Positions 6,696 through 24,367 of a stretch of 26,239 nt of DNA are shown here, one piece after another. Numbering within the stretch: position 1 is the first letter of the stretch; every line of letters starts with the position of its first letter. The notes below the pieces were generated by a model. It did no database searches. It was not told the origin of the DNA and worked only from the letters and a program-made list of their open reading frames with translations. The DNA comes from a virus, in the IMG/VR virus record IMGVR_UViG_3300021961_000547, positions 1 through 26,239 of that record. One strand, 5' to 3'. The translations under genes were made by a program, and so were the position numbers.

Positions 6696-7327
6696 GTCGT
6701 TCTCTTGATGGGATAATGCTGCAAGCTATTGCTGAAGGCACAGTTTATCCATTCTACACTGTGGATCTTATGTTCGACAGCGTTACTGGCGTAAGCTCTC
6801 CGTTATATCTTTGGACTGGCAGCGGCACTGTAACGATTGAGGGAAATTCTTACATCGGAACCGGGCAATTTTTAGAGCTATCAGCGTTCGAGGAAACCAC
6901 TGATATTTCTGCAAGGAATGCCACCTTAACTCTATCAGGTATCCCATCAGATTTGCTCTCCCTGGCATTGCAGATTCCCTATCAGGGCCGCAAGTGCATC
7001 ATTCAATTTGGCGTCTTCACAACTGGCAACATCCTCAAGGAAGATGGCGCTTATCTACTAAAAGAAGATGGCGGTAAGTTTATCCTCGAAGCTACAGAGA
7101 AAAGCAGATCCATCGTGTTCTCCGGTTTTATGGATCAAATGAAAATCACTGAGGCTGGAGATACAAGCCAAATCTCTCTGATTGTTGAAAGCAGATTGGT
7201 TGATTTGGAGCGAGTCAGGGTTCGTCGATATACATCAGAGGATCAAAAATCTAGGTTTACCAATGACTTGGGCTTCGATTTTGTGAATGACCTTCAAGAC
7301 AAGGAAATCTTCTGGGGGCGCAGATGA
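6692..7327 (+). CDS. Tail hub protein, DUF2163-like
   Basis: This 211-residue protein begins MSRSLDGIMLQAIAEGTVYP. It has VDLMFDS...LYLWTGSGTVTIEGNSYIGTGQFL and SARNATLTLSGIPSDLL, a signature of the small hub proteins found second after the tape measure in GTA-like tail modules. It is mostly beta sheet. It is coupled to both neighbours by overlapping stop and start codons. Its likely place is the baseplate hub between the distal tail ring and the J-like protein. Confidence 0.6.
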   Translation: MSRSLDGIMLQAIAEGTVYPFYTVDLMFDSVTGVSSPLYLWTGSGTVTIEGNSYIGTGQFLELSAFEETTDISARNATLTLSGIPSDLLSLALQIPYQGRKCIIQFGVFTTGNILKEDGAYLLKEDGGKFILEATEKSRSIVFSGFMDQMKITEAGDTSQISLIVESRLVDLERVRVRRYTSEDQKSRFTNDLGFDFVNDLQDKEIFWGRR

Positions 7328-16399: not shown

Positions 16400-17179
16400 T
16401 TGAGACTCAATACAATAAAAAAAGGGGATGCTGTTTCTGAATTAAAGAAACTAAAAGATGAGTCAATTGATTTAATTGTAACTTCGCCACCTTACAACCT
16501 AAAAAACAGTACTGGTAATGGTATGAAAGATGGACGTGGGGGTAAGTGGAGCAAGGCGGCTTTGATAAACGGCTACAAAGATTATGATGACAATATGCCA
16601 CATCATTTATATGTTGAGTGGCAACGTGAATGTCTTACTGAAATGTACAGAGTGTTAAAAGATGATGGTGCAATTTTCTACAATCATAAATGGAGAGTGC
16701 AAGGTGGCTTGTTGCAAGATAGACAAGACATTGTTGAAGGATTTCCAGTTAGACAAATAATAATTTGGCGTCGAAACGGGGGTATAAATTTTAACAAAGG
16801 TTATTTTTTGCCAACATATGAAGTTATATATCTAATAGCAAAAAAGAAGTTTGTGTTAGCGAAGGGTGCTAACAGTTTTGGAGATATATGGGAGTTTGGA
16901 CAAGAAATGAAAAACGAACATCCAGCACCATTTCCAGTTGCGTTAATTGAAAGAGTGATTCTTTCAACAAATGCTAAAACAGTAATGGATCCGTTTATGG
17001 GTTCTGGTACTACTGCCGTTGCGGCAAAGACGTTAGGAAGAGATTATTTTGGCATTGAACTGTCTGAAGAATATTGCAAGTTAGCAAGAAAGAGACTTTC
17101 TGAAACTGACAGAAACGAATTTACTACGCTTGAAATGTTTAAAGAAGATAACGAAAAGAAAGTATCAAAAAAAAGATAG
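16400..17179 (+). CDS. Beta-class DNA methyltransferase (N6-adenine or N4-cytosine), 259 aa
   Basis: TTG 16400 follows ACGGAGAC at good spacing. Motif IV comes first (TSPPYNL, residues 28-34) and motif I late (DPFMGSGTT, 197-205), the circularly permuted order of beta-class amino-methyltransferases; FGIELSEEYCKLARKR follows. It should methylate an exocyclic amine in a short target; TSPPY alone does not separate adenine from cytosine N4. The gene is visibly AT-richer than its neighbours and contains one GATC in 780 bases by my count, against nine in the 423-base resolvase gene. Remnants of phage genes on both sides show it was inserted. It may protect phage DNA from host restriction. Confidence 0.85.
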   Translation: MRLNTIKKGDAVSELKKLKDESIDLIVTSPPYNLKNSTGNGMKDGRGGKWSKAALINGYKDYDDNMPHHLYVEWQRECLTEMYRVLKDDGAIFYNHKWRVQGGLLQDRQDIVEGFPVRQIIIWRRNGGINFNKGYFLPTYEVIYLIAKKKFVLAKGANSFGDIWEFGQEMKNEHPAPFPVALIERVILSTNAKTVMDPFMGSGTTAVAAKTLGRDYFGIELSEEYCKLARKRLSETDRNEFTTLEMFKEDNEKKVSKKR

Positions 17180-17805: not shown

Positions 17806-18761
17806 TATTCCTCAACAGCCTTAAAGCTGATCGTTGATTGGCGCACCATTCTTTCTGGTTTTGCTGGCGTGACCTTTTCTGGTGTCGCTTTATATTTTCT
17901 CATTCCCCACTTCAATCGATAGCGAGTGTTATCAATCAAACCGTGCGCTGTTTCGTGCATACCCATAAGGTTCATCAGGATTGCTTGCGCTTCATCGATC
18001 TCAGCTTCTGCAATTTTCTTTCGGTCAGTAGCATCGACAAGCTGCTTTAGTGCATCAGCGTGAAGACCACTTTTCGGAATCATCACTTCTGGAGCATCTG
18101 GTTCTGCTTTAGGAAATGCAGTTACTCCATCCCTAGATTCCATAATCGGGAAATTGCCACCCTCTTCCAGACGGTTATAAAAATCCTTCAGCCTAAACTT
18201 GATTTGATTGATGATTTCTTCATCGCGTTCGTACAAAGCCAACCGCAGATCGATCCCTCGATAAAGAGTAGCGACGCAACCCCAGGTCCAGCCAGTGCAA
18301 AGCAATTGAGCTTGCAGCTGCAATGGTCCTCTCCAGGCTGGTGGAAACATCTCTGGAGCGTATGAAGTCAATTTAGCTTCAATAACACCAGGGCCATTAA
18401 GGATCATCTGATCGCCACCTTGCGGGAAAACAGCGACATCATTCTTAATCGTTATATTGTCGGCATAAGCACTTGCATCGAGGCTTGCAGCTAAATCTAC
18501 ACCGTCAGCAAAAAATGGCTCAGTGTGCATCGTTTCTAAATCACGCACCCTCAAACGCTCTGCTGCTTTTATTAAAATATGCGGCTCGAAGGTATTTCCC
18601 CACTCCGCAGCTTCTCCAGCTTCATATTCATCAGGAATGCCGTCTCGCCAATTTCTAACTGAGCGAAGCAAACCATTTGGAGTGGTGTAGGGACTAACGC
18701 CGAAAAGGCTTGGCATTTGAGACGCAGAAACTTTGTCGTTTGGCGTAATTTTGCCAACCAT
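17805..18761 (-). CDS. YqaJ/lambda-exonuclease-type recombination nuclease, 318 aa
   Basis: The 318-residue protein has the YqaJ signature: SASQMPSLFGVSPYTT near the N-terminus, EWGNTFEP (Glu59), LDASAY (Asp95), VIEAKLTS (Glu128, Lys130) and GPLQLQAQ (Gln148, Gln152). Those residues form the metal centre of lambda-exo-like 5'-3' exonucleases, which resect ends for single-strand annealing. The C-terminal 100 residues are helical, then basic. No RecT/Red-beta gene is visible; the SSB-like protein at 19231 could serve instead. The start follows CGGGAGAAAAGTT. Its last codons have a homologous remnant at 16295. Confidence 0.85.
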   Translation of the reverse strand: MVGKITPNDKVSASQMPSLFGVSPYTTPNGLLRSVRNWRDGIPDEYEAGEAAEWGNTFEPHILIKAAERLRVRDLETMHTEPFFADGVDLAASLDASAYADNITIKNDVAVFPQGGDQMILNGPGVIEAKLTSYAPEMFPPAWRGPLQLQAQLLCTGWTWGCVATLYRGIDLRLALYERDEEIINQIKFRLKDFYNRLEEGGNFPIMESRDGVTAFPKAEPDAPEVMIPKSGLHADALKQLVDATDRKKIAEAEIDEAQAILMNLMGMHETAHGLIDNTRYRLKWGMRKYKATPEKVTPAKPERMVRQSTISFKAVEE

Positions 18762-19943: not shown

Positions 19944-21746
19944 ATGGAAGAAAACATTGGTCAGATAATGACCGAGGTGGCGGTTCATTATTGGGGAGAG
20001 CCGCAATCAAAAAGAGGTGCTGAGTGGCGTTGGGGAACGCATGGATCTCGCACAATCGATCTAAAGCGAGGATGTTTTTTTGATTTTGAATTGAAAGAGG
20101 GTGGCGGAGTCGTCGATCTTATAAGGCGTGAAGAGGGTGCTGATGCACTCGTTGGAAGAATCCTGGAAGAAAAGTTTGGCGTTGAAGGCGGTAATGCTGA
20201 CAGAGTAAAGCCTAATCAGTGGCTTGCTTCTGCTTACGACTATATCGATGAAAATGGCGAAGTTCGTTATCAGGTGCTTCGATACGAACCAAAAACATTT
20301 CGACAAAGATCGCGCGGTTCCGATGGTCAATGGCGAAACTCGATGGAAGGGATCGAGGCGCTACCATATCATTTGCCGGATATACTTGCTCGAACTGATG
20401 AGCCGATTTTTATCGTTGAAGGCGAAAAGGCTTGCGATGCACTACGCAAAACAGGATTGCTAGTCACAACTTCGCATGGTGGCGCTGGAAATTGGAAGCC
20501 AGAACTAGATCGATGGTTTTCTGGTCGCCGAATAATTATCTTACCTGATAATGATGATGCTGGTTCTAATCATGCTCAAAAGATTGCTCGACGATTACAT
20601 GGATCGGCGGAAGCGCTGAAGATTGTTCGATTGCCTAATCTTGCTCCAAAGGGAGATATAGTTGATTGGCTCGATGCGGGTAACACAATCCAACAATTAA
20701 GGCTTCTGGTTAAAACGACTGATCTTTATGAACCTGGCGACGAAGAGCCGGAGATCGATATCATCGAGGAAGAGCAAGAATCGACGTTCGAGCTATTCAC
20801 TGCTGAAGATGCGATGACGATGCCACCAATCAGCTTTTTGATCGATGGTTATCTTCCAAAGAAATCCTTTTCAATGCTCTACGGGCCACCAGGATCAGGC
20901 AAGTCGTTTCTTGCGTTAGAAATGGCGCTATCCATCGCTCATGGTCGCCAATGGCGCTCTAGGGATGTAGTGAAATCAGGCGTAATCTACTTAGCTTCAG
21001 AAGGCTTCTTAGGCCAAGGTCAACGACTTCGAGGGTGGTACGCTCATAATCAGGTTTCGGATCACTGCGATTTGAGATTTATTCGCGTTCCTGTGGATTT
21101 TCTGCAAACCGAGGAAGTCGAGAAACTTATTCGAACCATTAACCTGGCAAACCTAAATGTTTCTTTGATTATCGTTGATACGGTTGCTCGATCATTTAGC
21201 GGCGATGAAAACTCGGCTCAGGAAATGGGTGCTTTCATTAAGGCTTGTAGCGCTTTAAGTGCTGCAACTGATGCAGCGGTTATGGGAGTGCATCACTCTT
21301 CAAAAACTCGCGAAAGAGGCCTAAGGGGCAGTTCGGCTCTTTTGGGTGCCGTGGATACTGTTATCGGCGTTGATAAGGATGAGAACGGAATTATCGACGT
21401 AAAGATCGAGAAACAGAAAGATGCCATCGAAGCTGAACCAATAAAACTAGCGTTGCAGCAAGTGTCGATAAACGGTGGATCGAGCGCTGTTTTGATCGAT
21501 GTTGATTCTGAAGCGGAACCAGATCGAAGACCAAATCTCAGTGCAAGAGAAATTATTGCGCTCGATGCTTTAACTAACCTTCTTAATGACTTGAGATTGC
21601 AGGAAGTTTCTGTTGCTCAGTGGCATGATGCACATAAAGAAAAAGCACCAGATACAACTCGACCAAATCGCAGCAAAGCTCGTGACGCGCTGCAACTAAA
21701 AGGCTATATTGCAATCGATGGCGGCAAGGTTTGGCTTCGTCGCTAA
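19944..21746 (+). CDS. Primase-helicase: TOPRIM domain plus RepA/DnaB-like ATPase, 600 aa
   Basis: ATG 19944 follows AACGGGAGAAATGGA. N-terminal residues 1-90 resemble the DNA-binding part of phage primases (GCFFDFELKEGGGVVDLI) but lack clear zinc cysteines. A TOPRIM domain follows, with FIVEGEKACDAL (Glu159) and ILPDNDDAG (202-207). Then comes an AAA/RecA-type helicase with Walker A GPPGSGKS (314-321), LIIVDTVARSF as Walker B, and VMGVHHSSK. The C-terminal part is helical. It should prime and unwind at the phage fork. No DNA polymerase gene is in the window, so the host enzyme is probably used. Confidence 0.88.
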   Translation: MEENIGQIMTEVAVHYWGEPQSKRGAEWRWGTHGSRTIDLKRGCFFDFELKEGGGVVDLIRREEGADALVGRILEEKFGVEGGNADRVKPNQWLASAYDYIDENGEVRYQVLRYEPKTFRQRSRGSDGQWRNSMEGIEALPYHLPDILARTDEPIFIVEGEKACDALRKTGLLVTTSHGGAGNWKPELDRWFSGRRIIILPDNDDAGSNHAQKIARRLHGSAEALKIVRLPNLAPKGDIVDWLDAGNTIQQLRLLVKTTDLYEPGDEEPEIDIIEEEQESTFELFTAEDAMTMPPISFLIDGYLPKKSFSMLYGPPGSGKSFLALEMALSIAHGRQWRSRDVVKSGVIYLASEGFLGQGQRLRGWYAHNQVSDHCDLRFIRVPVDFLQTEEVEKLIRTINLANLNVSLIIVDTVARSFSGDENSAQEMGAFIKACSALSAATDAAVMGVHHSSKTRERGLRGSSALLGAVDTVIGVDKDENGIIDVKIEKQKDAIEAEPIKLALQQVSINGGSSAVLIDVDSEAEPDRRPNLSAREIIALDALTNLLNDLRLQEVSVAQWHDAHKEKAPDTTRPNRSKARDALQLKGYIAIDGGKVWLRR

Positions 21747-22063
21747 TGTAATCGGCTGACGCTTCCTTCCCTGGCGTTATGCTGATCGCGCCCGTCCCTT
21801 GGCTGTTCCTCTCCCGTGAGCCTTGGGGCGGGCTGCTTGTTTTTCTTCTGCGGAACATAGCCACGATGCTTAAATACAAGCTCGAAGTAATTCGACTCTT
21901 GGTGGCCAATTCGTTTATGGCATAACCAGATCAAACCAGCTTTTTCTTCAAAAAAATAACCATTGATAATGGATTTGGAAGCATCGGCAGATTTGCCAGG
22001 GACAATCCAATGATTGCCAGTTTTAGGGCTTCGATAGGCGATTGTTGTCCAAGTGCTTTTCAC
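21743..22063 (-). CDS. Small hypothetical protein on minus strand, 106 aa
   Basis: GTG at 22063-22061 follows AGGAGAGAAAAA, a good ribosome binding site. Residues 1-75 (MKSTWTTIAYRSPKTGNHW at the start, IWLCHKRIGHQESNYFELVFKHRGYVP later) look like a folded basic domain. The last 30 residues are low-complexity and charged, and the same DNA can form a hairpin on the plus strand. The stop overlaps that of the primase-helicase by a few bases. I do not recognise the family. The GTG start and strand switch leave some doubt. Confidence 0.5.
   Translation of the reverse strand: MKSTWTTIAYRSPKTGNHWIVPGKSADASKSIINGYFFEEKAGLIWLCHKRIGHQESNYFELVFKHRGYVPQKKNKQPAPRLTGEEQPRDGRDQHNAREGSVSRLH
21791..21846 (+). 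terminator. Possible terminator after the primase-helicase gene
   Basis: CCCGTCCCTTGGC (21791-21803) pairs with GCCTTGGGGCGGG (21820-21832), with one G-U and two T-T mismatches. After seven bases a T-rich run (GTTTTTCTT) follows. The gap before the T run is long for an intrinsic terminator, and the site lies inside a minus-strand reading frame, so this is only a candidate. Confidence 0.35.
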
Positions 22064-22145: not shown

Positions 22146-22175
22146 TTGACGGCATAAATGTTAATTTTGTATTAA
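22146..22175 (+). promoter_or_regulatory. Sigma-70-like promoter of the small early operon
   Basis: TTGACG (22146-22151) and TATTAA (22170-22175) are separated by 18 bases and lie 28 bases before the ATG of the 90-residue protein. This is the best promoter match I found in the window. It should drive the genes from 22203 onward. Confidence 0.7.
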
Positions 22176-22176
22176 C
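22160..22176. promoter_or_regulatory. CtrA-type box overlapping the -10 of the early promoter
   Basis: GTTAAT (22160-22165), a five-base spacer, then ATTAAC (22171-22176) form a perfect palindrome. Read linearly it is TTAA-N7-TTAAC, the full consensus bound by the alphaproteobacterial cell-cycle regulator CtrA, and it reads the same way on both strands. It covers the -10 hexamer, so a bound protein should repress. Binding itself is an inference. Confidence 0.6.
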
Positions 22177-22202
22177 AATTATCGATAACGGGAGAAATCG
22201 AA

Positions 22203-22475
22203 ATGAATAAAAACTTAATCAATCACGGTTTGGTTGACGACAAGCAAACCTTCACCATTGAGATGTTGAATGATGCCGCTGATGCAGTGTGGGAAACATA
22301 CAAGGCAACGGTTGTTCGGGGTCATTACACTGACGGCTCGGATGATTGGATGGTCTTTGTCAAAGTAGATAAGGCCAACGGCAAAAGTCACTGGCGTTGG
22401 CTTTGCCAAAACAAACAATGGAGACGCATCCATCGAGTAGTGAGCGCAATTGAAAAACAACAGGTGGCGGCCTAA
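22203..22475 (+). CDS. Early hypothetical protein, 90 aa
   Basis: ATG 22203 follows AACGGGAGAAATCGAA and is the first gene after the CtrA-boxed promoter. The 90-residue product starts MNKNLINHGLVDDKQTFTIEM and contains DDWMVFVKVDKANG and HWRWLCQNKQWRR, rich in tryptophan and basic residues at the end. Being first in an early operon, it may be a host-takeover protein. No family recognised. Confidence 0.6.
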   Translation: MNKNLINHGLVDDKQTFTIEMLNDAADAVWETYKATVVRGHYTDGSDDWMVFVKVDKANGKSHWRWLCQNKQWRRIHRVVSAIEKQQVAA

Positions 22476-22501
22476 CGGCCCCATCTATCGGGAGAGATAA
22501 A

Positions 22502-23050
22502 ATGATTATCGATGAATATCTCTACAATCGCGGCAAAGAGCGTCGGATCATGGCGAACGCCAGTAAAGGTCGTTTCAATCGCATGATGGCAACTGAGGTT
22601 GGCAAAGAGGCTCACGATATTCTGCTTGGCGAAAGATGGATGGAAGGCAACTTTGCTGAAAAGATGCGGGAAGTGCTGCACAACTATGGTGGCTTAACTG
22701 AAAACCAATCTGCTGCGGTTGTTCGCATTTACAATGAAACCGAGTCCAAACGCGAGGAGCGCAAAGCTGCAAGATTAGCAGAAGACGCTCTGTCTCAGCA
22801 CATTGGTGAAGTTGGGCAACGCATCGAAATGACGCTCGAAGTTAGGAAGGTTATTGCGCTTGATGGTTACTACGGGCCAATCAACATCAACATTTGTCGA
22901 TGCGGTTCTGATGTTGTGATCTACAAAGGTTCAAATCGTTTAGACGTATTTTGCGATGGCCCCACAGTGACAGTCAAAGCCACAATCAAAGCCCATGAAG
23001 TGCGAGAGGGCATAAACCAAACCATCATTAGCAGGCCAACTGTGCAATGA
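22502..23050 (+). CDS. Early protein with OB-like C-terminal domain, 182 aa
   Basis: ATG 22502 follows CGGGAGAGATAA. Residues about 1-95 are helical and charged (NRMMATEVGKEAHDILLGERW and more). Residues about 100-182 (IEMTLEVRKVIALDGYYGPI, DGPTVTVKATIKAHE, INQTIISRPTVQ) resemble a small beta-barrel, OB-like domain found in many phage early proteins that end in similar K-x-H-E/Q-T motifs. Nucleic acid binding is likely but not shown. The stop overlaps the next tiny gene (ATGA). Confidence 0.6.
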   Translation: MIIDEYLYNRGKERRIMANASKGRFNRMMATEVGKEAHDILLGERWMEGNFAEKMREVLHNYGGLTENQSAAVVRIYNETESKREERKAARLAEDALSQHIGEVGQRIEMTLEVRKVIALDGYYGPININICRCGSDVVIYKGSNRLDVFCDGPTVTVKATIKAHEVREGINQTIISRPTVQ

Positions 23051-23124: not shown

Positions 23125-23508
23125 ATGTTGGAAGCAGCTTTTGTTTGTTATGCTCTTGCGGTTTATTTTGAGGGCCGCTCAGAGCCAGAAGAGGCACAAC
23201 GCCAAATCGTTCATGTCATTAAGAACCGGGTAAACCATAGCGCTTTTCCTAATGATGCTTGCTCGGTCGTAAAACAGAAAAATCAATTTAGTTTTTATTG
23301 GGATGGCAAGAGTGATCGACCAAGGGAGCGCAAAGCCTGGGAGCGCTCAGTAAGGGTGGTCGAGGAAGCATTTCAAGCTCCTTGGGAAAATCTTGGCGCA
23401 ACTCATTATCACGCAGAGTGGACGCAACCAAGCTGGGCATCATCACCAAAGATGCAGAAGATCGAACAAATCGGGACACATATTTTCTATTTGGAGGAAC
23501 GTAGATGA
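23125..23508 (+). CDS. SleB-like cell wall hydrolase (Hydrolase_2 family), 127 aa
   Basis: The 127-residue protein has the SleB pattern: AVYFEGRSEPEEAQRQIVHV (likely catalytic Glu16), VIKNRVNHSAFPNDACSVV, QFSFYWDG, GATHYHAEW, PSWASS and IGTHIFY. The family cuts peptidoglycan, probably as a lytic transglycosylase or amidase. There is no clear signal peptide. It sits in the early operon, far from the lysis block with its GH24 lysozyme, so it may act at another stage or be an extra endolysin. It overlaps the next gene by four bases. Confidence 0.8.
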   Translation: MLEAAFVCYALAVYFEGRSEPEEAQRQIVHVIKNRVNHSAFPNDACSVVKQKNQFSFYWDGKSDRPRERKAWERSVRVVEEAFQAPWENLGATHYHAEWTQPSWASSPKMQKIEQIGTHIFYLEERR

Positions 23509-23756
23509 CTACGGATATTGAAAAGATCGATGATCTAATAACTCAGGGCTATCACCCAAAAGACGTAGCTCTGATGATCGGCACTAACGAAGCAACTGTT
23601 CGAGTCCAGGCTTGCAGACGTGGATCCCTAAGGCGGCTCATACCAGTAAGGATTGCTTTGTCACTTCAAGCCTATAACCGCGCTGAAGAGATGGCTGAAG
23701 AGCAAGGCGTTTGCGTAGAAACATGGTTGCAGCAAAAGTTGGAGAGGGAGGAGTAA
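23505..23756 (+). CDS. Small helix-turn-helix protein, 83 aa
   Basis: The 83-residue protein has a likely HTH at about 8-40: IDDLITQGYHPKDVALMIG, then TNEATVRVQACRRGSLRR, with helix, turn and basic recognition helix. The C-terminal half is helical and acidic. It may regulate phage transcription; the boxes at 22160 and 22097 are possible targets. The stop overlaps the next ATG (TAATG). Confidence 0.6.
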   Translation: MTTDIEKIDDLITQGYHPKDVALMIGTNEATVRVQACRRGSLRRLIPVRIALSLQAYNRAEEMAEEQGVCVETWLQQKLEREE

Positions 23757-23974: not shown

Positions 23975-24367
23975 ATGATCTATAAATTAGAGTTGCAAGG
24001 TAACGTTCATGAGCTTTGCTGGTTTCCAACCATCGATGATGCGGTGGATGATTTGATCCATCGAAATGAGTCGGCTGGGAGGAAGATTACAATCAACGAA
24101 GCATCGAAAGGTGCGATTCAATTCTCGCTCATCTATCCATCACTCAATCGCAAAATCGATGGCACGATCAGTAGATATGGGCTTGGTGGAAGGTTGCCAA
24201 TAGATCCAAGCGACGTTTTAGATGATGTCGAAAAGATGATGAATCAAAGAATGAAACGGAACGAGATTTGCCGAATTTTGAGCATCTCGACAGCTACTTA
24301 TTTGAATGCAAAACGCATCATTCAGATACGAAAAAAGACCAAAAATCGGCGAAACGGGATGAAGTGA
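23975..24367 (+). CDS. Hypothetical protein with HTH-like C-terminus, 130 aa
   Basis: ATG 23975 lies three bases after the DUF7220 stop, behind GGGAGAGAATAGAGC. The 130-residue protein has an N-terminal alpha/beta part (YKLELQGNVHELCWFPTI) and a basic C-terminus. QRMKRNEICRILSISTATYLN in the latter part looks like a helix-turn-helix, followed by many Lys and Arg. DNA binding is plausible; no family is recognised. Confidence 0.55.
   Translation: MIYKLELQGNVHELCWFPTIDDAVDDLIHRNESAGRKITINEASKGAIQFSLIYPSLNRKIDGTISRYGLGGRLPIDPSDVLDDVEKMMNQRMKRNEICRILSISTATYLNAKRIIQIRKKTKNRRNGMK

Follow-up and report, generated by a model that had tools for sequence, protein, structure and literature searches.

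Is the palindrome in front of a small phage gene in this DNA a binding site for CtrA, a cell-state regulator of the bacterial host? The window, i.e., the whole stretch of 26,239 nucleotides that was analysed, is a 26-kb virus fragment. The original prediction placed a TTAA-N7-TTAAC palindrome at positions 22160-22176 and read it as a CtrA-type operator that overlaps the -10 of the strongest promoter seen, the promoter being early. The palindrome, GTTAATTTTGTATTAAC, was found exactly there. The gap that contains it, 139 nt long, separates a gene on the minus strand from one on the plus strand (Table 1), and the palindrome is the sole TTAA-N7-TTAA in the whole window.

The sequence around the box has the layout of a promoter. 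TTGACG is followed after 18 nt by TATTAA, then by GGGAG and by the ATG at 22203, and these elements may reasonably be taken as a promoter with a ribosome-binding site. The overlap of the box with the -10 is plausible, as TATTAA falls into the right half of the box. A consensus promoter scan of the window did not include the box promoter in its output, because TATTAA lacks the final T; the rank of strongest promoter is therefore unsupported. The window's site is a near-perfect dyad within a wider inverted repeat, of which the relatives keep the GTTAA/TTAAC core only.

Table 1. Positions of the box, the putative promoter elements and the neighbouring genes in the window.
Feature	Position	Strand	Remarks
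GTTAA-N7-TTAAC box, GTTAATTTTGTATTAAC	22160-22176	.	proposed CtrA site; kept in L004, L005, L006
-35 element TTGACG	22146-22151	+	TTGAC in L004, L005, L006
Putative -10 TATTAA	22170-22175	+	read from sequence; within the right half of the box; relatives have TATTAA or GATTAA
Imperfect inverted repeat (one mismatch between its 12-nt arms)	22154-22182	.	read from sequence
Shine-Dalgarno GGGAG	22190-22194	+	in leader CGATAAC-GGGAGAAATCGAAATG common to relatives
First gene of the unit behind the box, 90 aa	22203-22475	+	no assigned function
Second gene, 182 aa	22502-23050	+	phage protein without assigned function; phrog_27218, 1.7e-26
Cell-wall hydrolase (Hydrolase_2, SleB-like)	23125-23508	+	87-88% identical in all box-bearing relatives
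83-aa protein	23505-23756	+	helix-turn-helix DNA-binding look; candidate autorepressor
130-aa protein	23975-24367	+	C-terminal helical helix-turn-helix-like region; second candidate regulator
Divergent gene, 106 aa	21743-22063	-	no assigned function; other side of the promoter region

In shuffled versions of the window TTAA-N7-TTAA occurs 0.46 times on average and is present in 37 of 100 shuffles. The stricter GTTAA-N7-TTAAC is rare, with 0.018 expected in the window. Taken from the window alone the evidence for the box is weak, and it is far beyond chance once the relatives are counted. The neighbouring primase is found at 71-88% identity in four viral contigs, one of which stops short of the promoter. 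The three others (L004, L005 and L006) belong to the same lineage, and all of them carry GTTAA-N7-TTAAC at the same place. The spacer reads TCCGATA in L004 and AGTAAGA in L005; L006 has TTTTGTA as in the window, and its whole box is identical to the window's. The first gene behind the promoter differs in all four phages. Common to the relatives is a leader composed of TTGAC, the box, CGATAA and GGGAGAAATCGAAA. L006 departs from this in that its TTGAC is shifted 8-9 nt upstream, the -35 place being taken by TTTACA. Another promoter follows in this phage 544 nt downstream of the first, and it too carries a box (spacer TATTAGA). Each of the two box promoters of L006 (G003), at 7212 and 7756, comes with a separate GGGAGAAATC leader, and their small genes differ.

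Over the 79 kb of lineage contigs five GTTAA-N7-TTAAC sites were observed versus 0.064 expected, all of them in promoters and none in genes, and no further TTAA-N7-TTAA occurs in these 79 kb, the 32-kb G003 included. The Poisson value for the five sites, 8.5e-9, overstates independence, since homology links four of the five positions, and two of these four share one and the same box; the stronger argument is given by L004 and L005, where the halves persist although the spacers have diverged. Part of the conservation may reflect constraint on the promoter, since the right half of the box coincides with the -10. Another contig, L272, shares tail and lysis genes at 25-47% identity and has one TTAA-N7-TTAA in 9 kb; this site also lies in a TTGAC promoter before a small gene, in a contig that had been picked out by a search for this very motif. 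Conservation of the box in related phages, proposed originally as a check, thus holds for all close relatives that have the region, but not for the five more distant cultured relatives checked (CRP-831, 821, 823, 406 and 811), from which TTAA-N7-TTAA is absent. We also scanned IMG/VR for the whole architecture (TTGAC, 8-11 nt, GTTAA-N7-TTAAC), with N8 spacing as the control. No wide enrichment was seen: among the matches listed, 2 of 74 were promoter-like under a strict filter, versus 1 of 72 in the N8 control. A tighter pattern with GGGAGAAA downstream returned the known relatives and otherwise matches without that promoter context.

This marine phage belongs, by its gene content, with the CRP-822-type roseophages. 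Its capsid protein is 62-66% identical, over most of the length, to those of Roseobacter phages CRP-831, 821, 822, 823 and 406, and many other genes of the window match CRP phages at lower identity. Like these phages it has a homologous capsid, a similar gene order and replication module, and no integrase; unlike the window, the five isolates checked are devoid of any TTAA-N7-TTAA. Terminase and portal genes are missing from the window fragment, and their place is filled in G003. Members of the CRP-822-type family almost always lack an integrase and are thought to be strictly lytic, and their predicted hosts are roseobacters, SAR11 and the gammaproteobacterial SAR86 and KI89A (PMC12629253). 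The isolates closest to the window phage infect Roseobacter; gammaproteobacteria are predicted as hosts for some subgroups of the family. A roseobacter, CtrA-bearing host is likely for the window phage.

The same motif was then looked at in 12 Rhodobacteraceae genomes. GTTAA-N7-TTAAC is present there at 59 sites, compared with 16 at N8 and 17 at N6, and with 24 for the reversed-pattern control of the symmetric form. The asymmetric HTTAA-N7-TTAAC is unenriched in these genomes (118 versus 161 in the reversed control), and the symmetric form is enriched relative to it with an odds ratio of 3.4 (p = 5e-6). The N7 sites avoid coding sequence: 11 of the 58 read in context lie in long ORFs, versus 512 of 600 random positions (85%). 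Two similar three-copy arrays of GTTAACAGCTGTTAAC-like palindromes account for six of the N6 sites; as these look like centromere sites of plasmids, the preference for N7 spacing is, if anything, understated. Perfect or near-perfect GTTAACAGCTGTTAAC palindromes occur at 40394, 41941 and 42715 of G009:C3 and at 18526, 20071 and 20845 of G016:C19, i.e., in two Rhodobacteraceae, with nearly identical spacings of about 1546 and 774 nt. Both arrays are probably parS sites of RepABC plasmids.

Among the genes adjoining the host sites are those for a LuxR-type autoinducer (quorum-sensing) regulator and a PAS-histidine kinase, as well as for RTX proteins and for glycosyltransferases that have MshEN domains. 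The LuxR-type regulator and the kinase agree with what is known of the Dinoroseobacter CtrA regulon (luxR2, divL), where TTAA-N7-TTAAC CtrA sites were described before luxR2, divL, cckA, ctrA and flagellar genes (PMC4046655). Upstream of ctrA itself full N7 sites were found 3 times in 80 loci, too few for a logo. Scored on the spacer and flank columns, the phage sites rank from the 53rd to the 72nd percentile among host sites; next to the TTAA arms, on their inner side, the host sites favour C/G (54%), whereas the phage sites have mostly T/A. Judged by its distribution, GTTAA-N7-TTAAC is a genuine regulatory motif of Rhodobacteraceae, and it is probably their CtrA box, given the match to the published consensus and the few neighbouring genes. 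One Rhodobacteraceae genome has GTTAA-N7-TTAAC (L147, G011:C2 53858-53874) about 390 nt upstream of a terminase-like gene, so the box may also occur there within a prophage or a gene transfer agent region.

The box stands in front of an operon whose first genes are exchanged between phages. In L004, L005 and L006 other, unrelated small genes stand in place of the gene at 22203, and no homologues of the latter were found. The 182-aa gene is absent from G001-G003 and recurs in another setting in L028/L060. As the genes there are swapped between close relatives, positions 22203-23050 mark a hypervariable accessory-gene slot behind the box. The operon runs on towards the terminase/portal region (as seen in the CRP phages, and in G003 by position), which places it between the replication genes and the packaging genes. 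The early timing that was originally claimed was not confirmed.

On the whole we consider it rather probable that the box is a site for host CtrA, selected in this roseophage lineage, and that phosphorylated CtrA (CtrA~P) represses the operon. CtrA~P on GTTAA-N7-TTAAC would cover about -22 to -6 of the TTGAC promoter and would block RNA polymerase. Repression is favoured because the box covers the -10: CtrA repression sites overlap the -10 and activating sites lie near the -35 (PMC6180460). Expression would then be low while CtrA~P is high and would be released as CtrA~P falls, similarly to DELTA_120 of phage vB_BsubS-Delta (PMC9437464). The unit so controlled would comprise the variable small gene, the cell-wall hydrolase, two possible DNA-binding proteins and genes towards packaging, and it could serve as a host-adaptation operon. 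The original reading of a CtrA-type operator is partly supported: it gains from the conserved box and from its identity in form with the non-coding motif of Rhodobacteraceae, but loses from the lack of the box in the five distant cultured relatives.

An autorepressor made by the phage is the strongest competitor, and still rather unlikely. The box would be the operator of a phage-encoded dimeric protein, likeliest the 83-aa or the 130-aa protein, that shuts off its own operon, and the likeness to a CtrA box would be coincidence or mimicry. Both genes are present in the operon of all four box-bearing phages, the 83-aa protein is found in no other viral contig searched, and comparison with the CRP isolates at E<=1e-6 matched neither protein; the near-perfect dyad of the window is, moreover, a common form of phage operator. 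However, the core equals the Rhodobacteraceae motif in all ten letters and in the spacing, and it is GTTAA-N7-TTAAC alone that is kept throughout, the wider dyad being lost in some relatives. The predicted fold of the 83-aa protein (pLDDT 82) has no PDB match at E<=0.001, and co-presence in the same four genomes fits control by CtrA and autorepression alike.

Activation of the operon by CtrA at the box, as known for phiCbK gp005 and gp018, is improbable; it would take place in, for example, predivisional, motile or stationary cells. CtrA is mainly an activator in Phaeobacter (PMC12363192), and it activates phage promoters of phiCbK and Cp1R7A-A1 (PMC9437464). Activating sites, however, are found near the -35 (PMC6180460), while here it is the likely -10 that is covered and the TTGAC -35 that is free upstream; if the -10 were instead sought downstream of the box, it would coincide with or abut the Shine-Dalgarno sequence. 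We give a similarly low probability to an operator shared by host and phage regulators, at which the phage's own small DNA-binding protein competes for a single-site CtrA roadblock. That the box is an AT-rich sequence matching by chance around a -10, for which the frequency of a single TTAA-N7-TTAA in the shuffles (37%) speaks, is very improbable, as neither the halves nor their exact spacing have changed in spite of diverged spacers and flanks, and as all five lineage sites lie in promoters.

Control of phage promoters by CtrA has already been published: shift and reporter assays demonstrated it in three phages (Mascolo et al. 2022, PMC9437464), and the window phage would be a further candidate, by virtue of its sequence. 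The set described as 'lytic deferment' consists of DELTA_120 of vB_BsubS-Delta, gp005 and gp018 of phiCbK, and Mesorhizobium phage Cp1R7A-A1, and at the DELTA_120 promoter CtrA represses (PMC9437464). Those phages and the window have in common a full TTAA-N7-TTAA in the promoter of a small phage gene without assigned function, and the phage group to which the window belongs likewise includes members with alphaproteobacterial hosts. They differ in that the published phages have a dense cluster of sites in a terminal repeat or gap, whereas the window lineage has one or two sites per phage. The lineage is, in addition, of a small 30-kb CRP-822-type siphovirus without integrase, with a putative site known from sequence. 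By the low positional entropy used by Mascolo et al. 2022, many sites, more than five, are needed in one region; the window has one and the 32-kb G003 has two. As for promoter position, also considered by these authors, 5/5 lineage sites are in promoters.

Two other systems are comparable in part. Infection by the Rhodobacter capsulatus phage Jorvik needs ctrA (PMC10589892). Jorvik resembles the window phage in being a phage of Rhodobacteraceae (the likely host group of the latter) that has a putative CtrA site between genes, in a regulatory region, but it is membrane-containing and temperate, with the site near divergent operons that include a phage repressor, whereas the window phage is tailed and integrase-less. 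In Bacillus phage phi29, with its Spo0A sites (as reviewed in PMC9437464), a developmental regulator of the host holds back a virulent phage, as proposed here, although regulator, host and promoters are different. If true, control of phage genes by host CtrA would extend to a family of small, apparently strictly lytic phages that is common in the sea. A natural comparison lies at hand: in this lineage the first genes are exchanged behind a constant box, and cultured cousins with the same structural genes lack it.

Two further elements of the window were noted. An N6/N4 DNA methyltransferase is encoded at 16400-17179 and has no match in the relatives G001-G003; its best PDB match is a cytosine-N4 methyltransferase. 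It was considered as a CcrM and rejected, as the cytosine-N4 enzymes match best and the CcrM match is shorter and scores lower. Directly behind the stop codon of the primase gene, at 21746-21842 on the plus strand, there is a strongly folded two-hairpin RNA (z = -6.0), found at the same place in L003, L004, L005 and L006, with five compensatory pairs in the five sequences. An Rfam search of the region gave no family match. The second loop of this RNA contains CTCCCGTG, of which about 7-9 nt are complementary to the Shine-Dalgarno context of the box-controlled gene, ACGGGAGA; the structure may be a terminator or a small phage RNA with an anti-SD loop.
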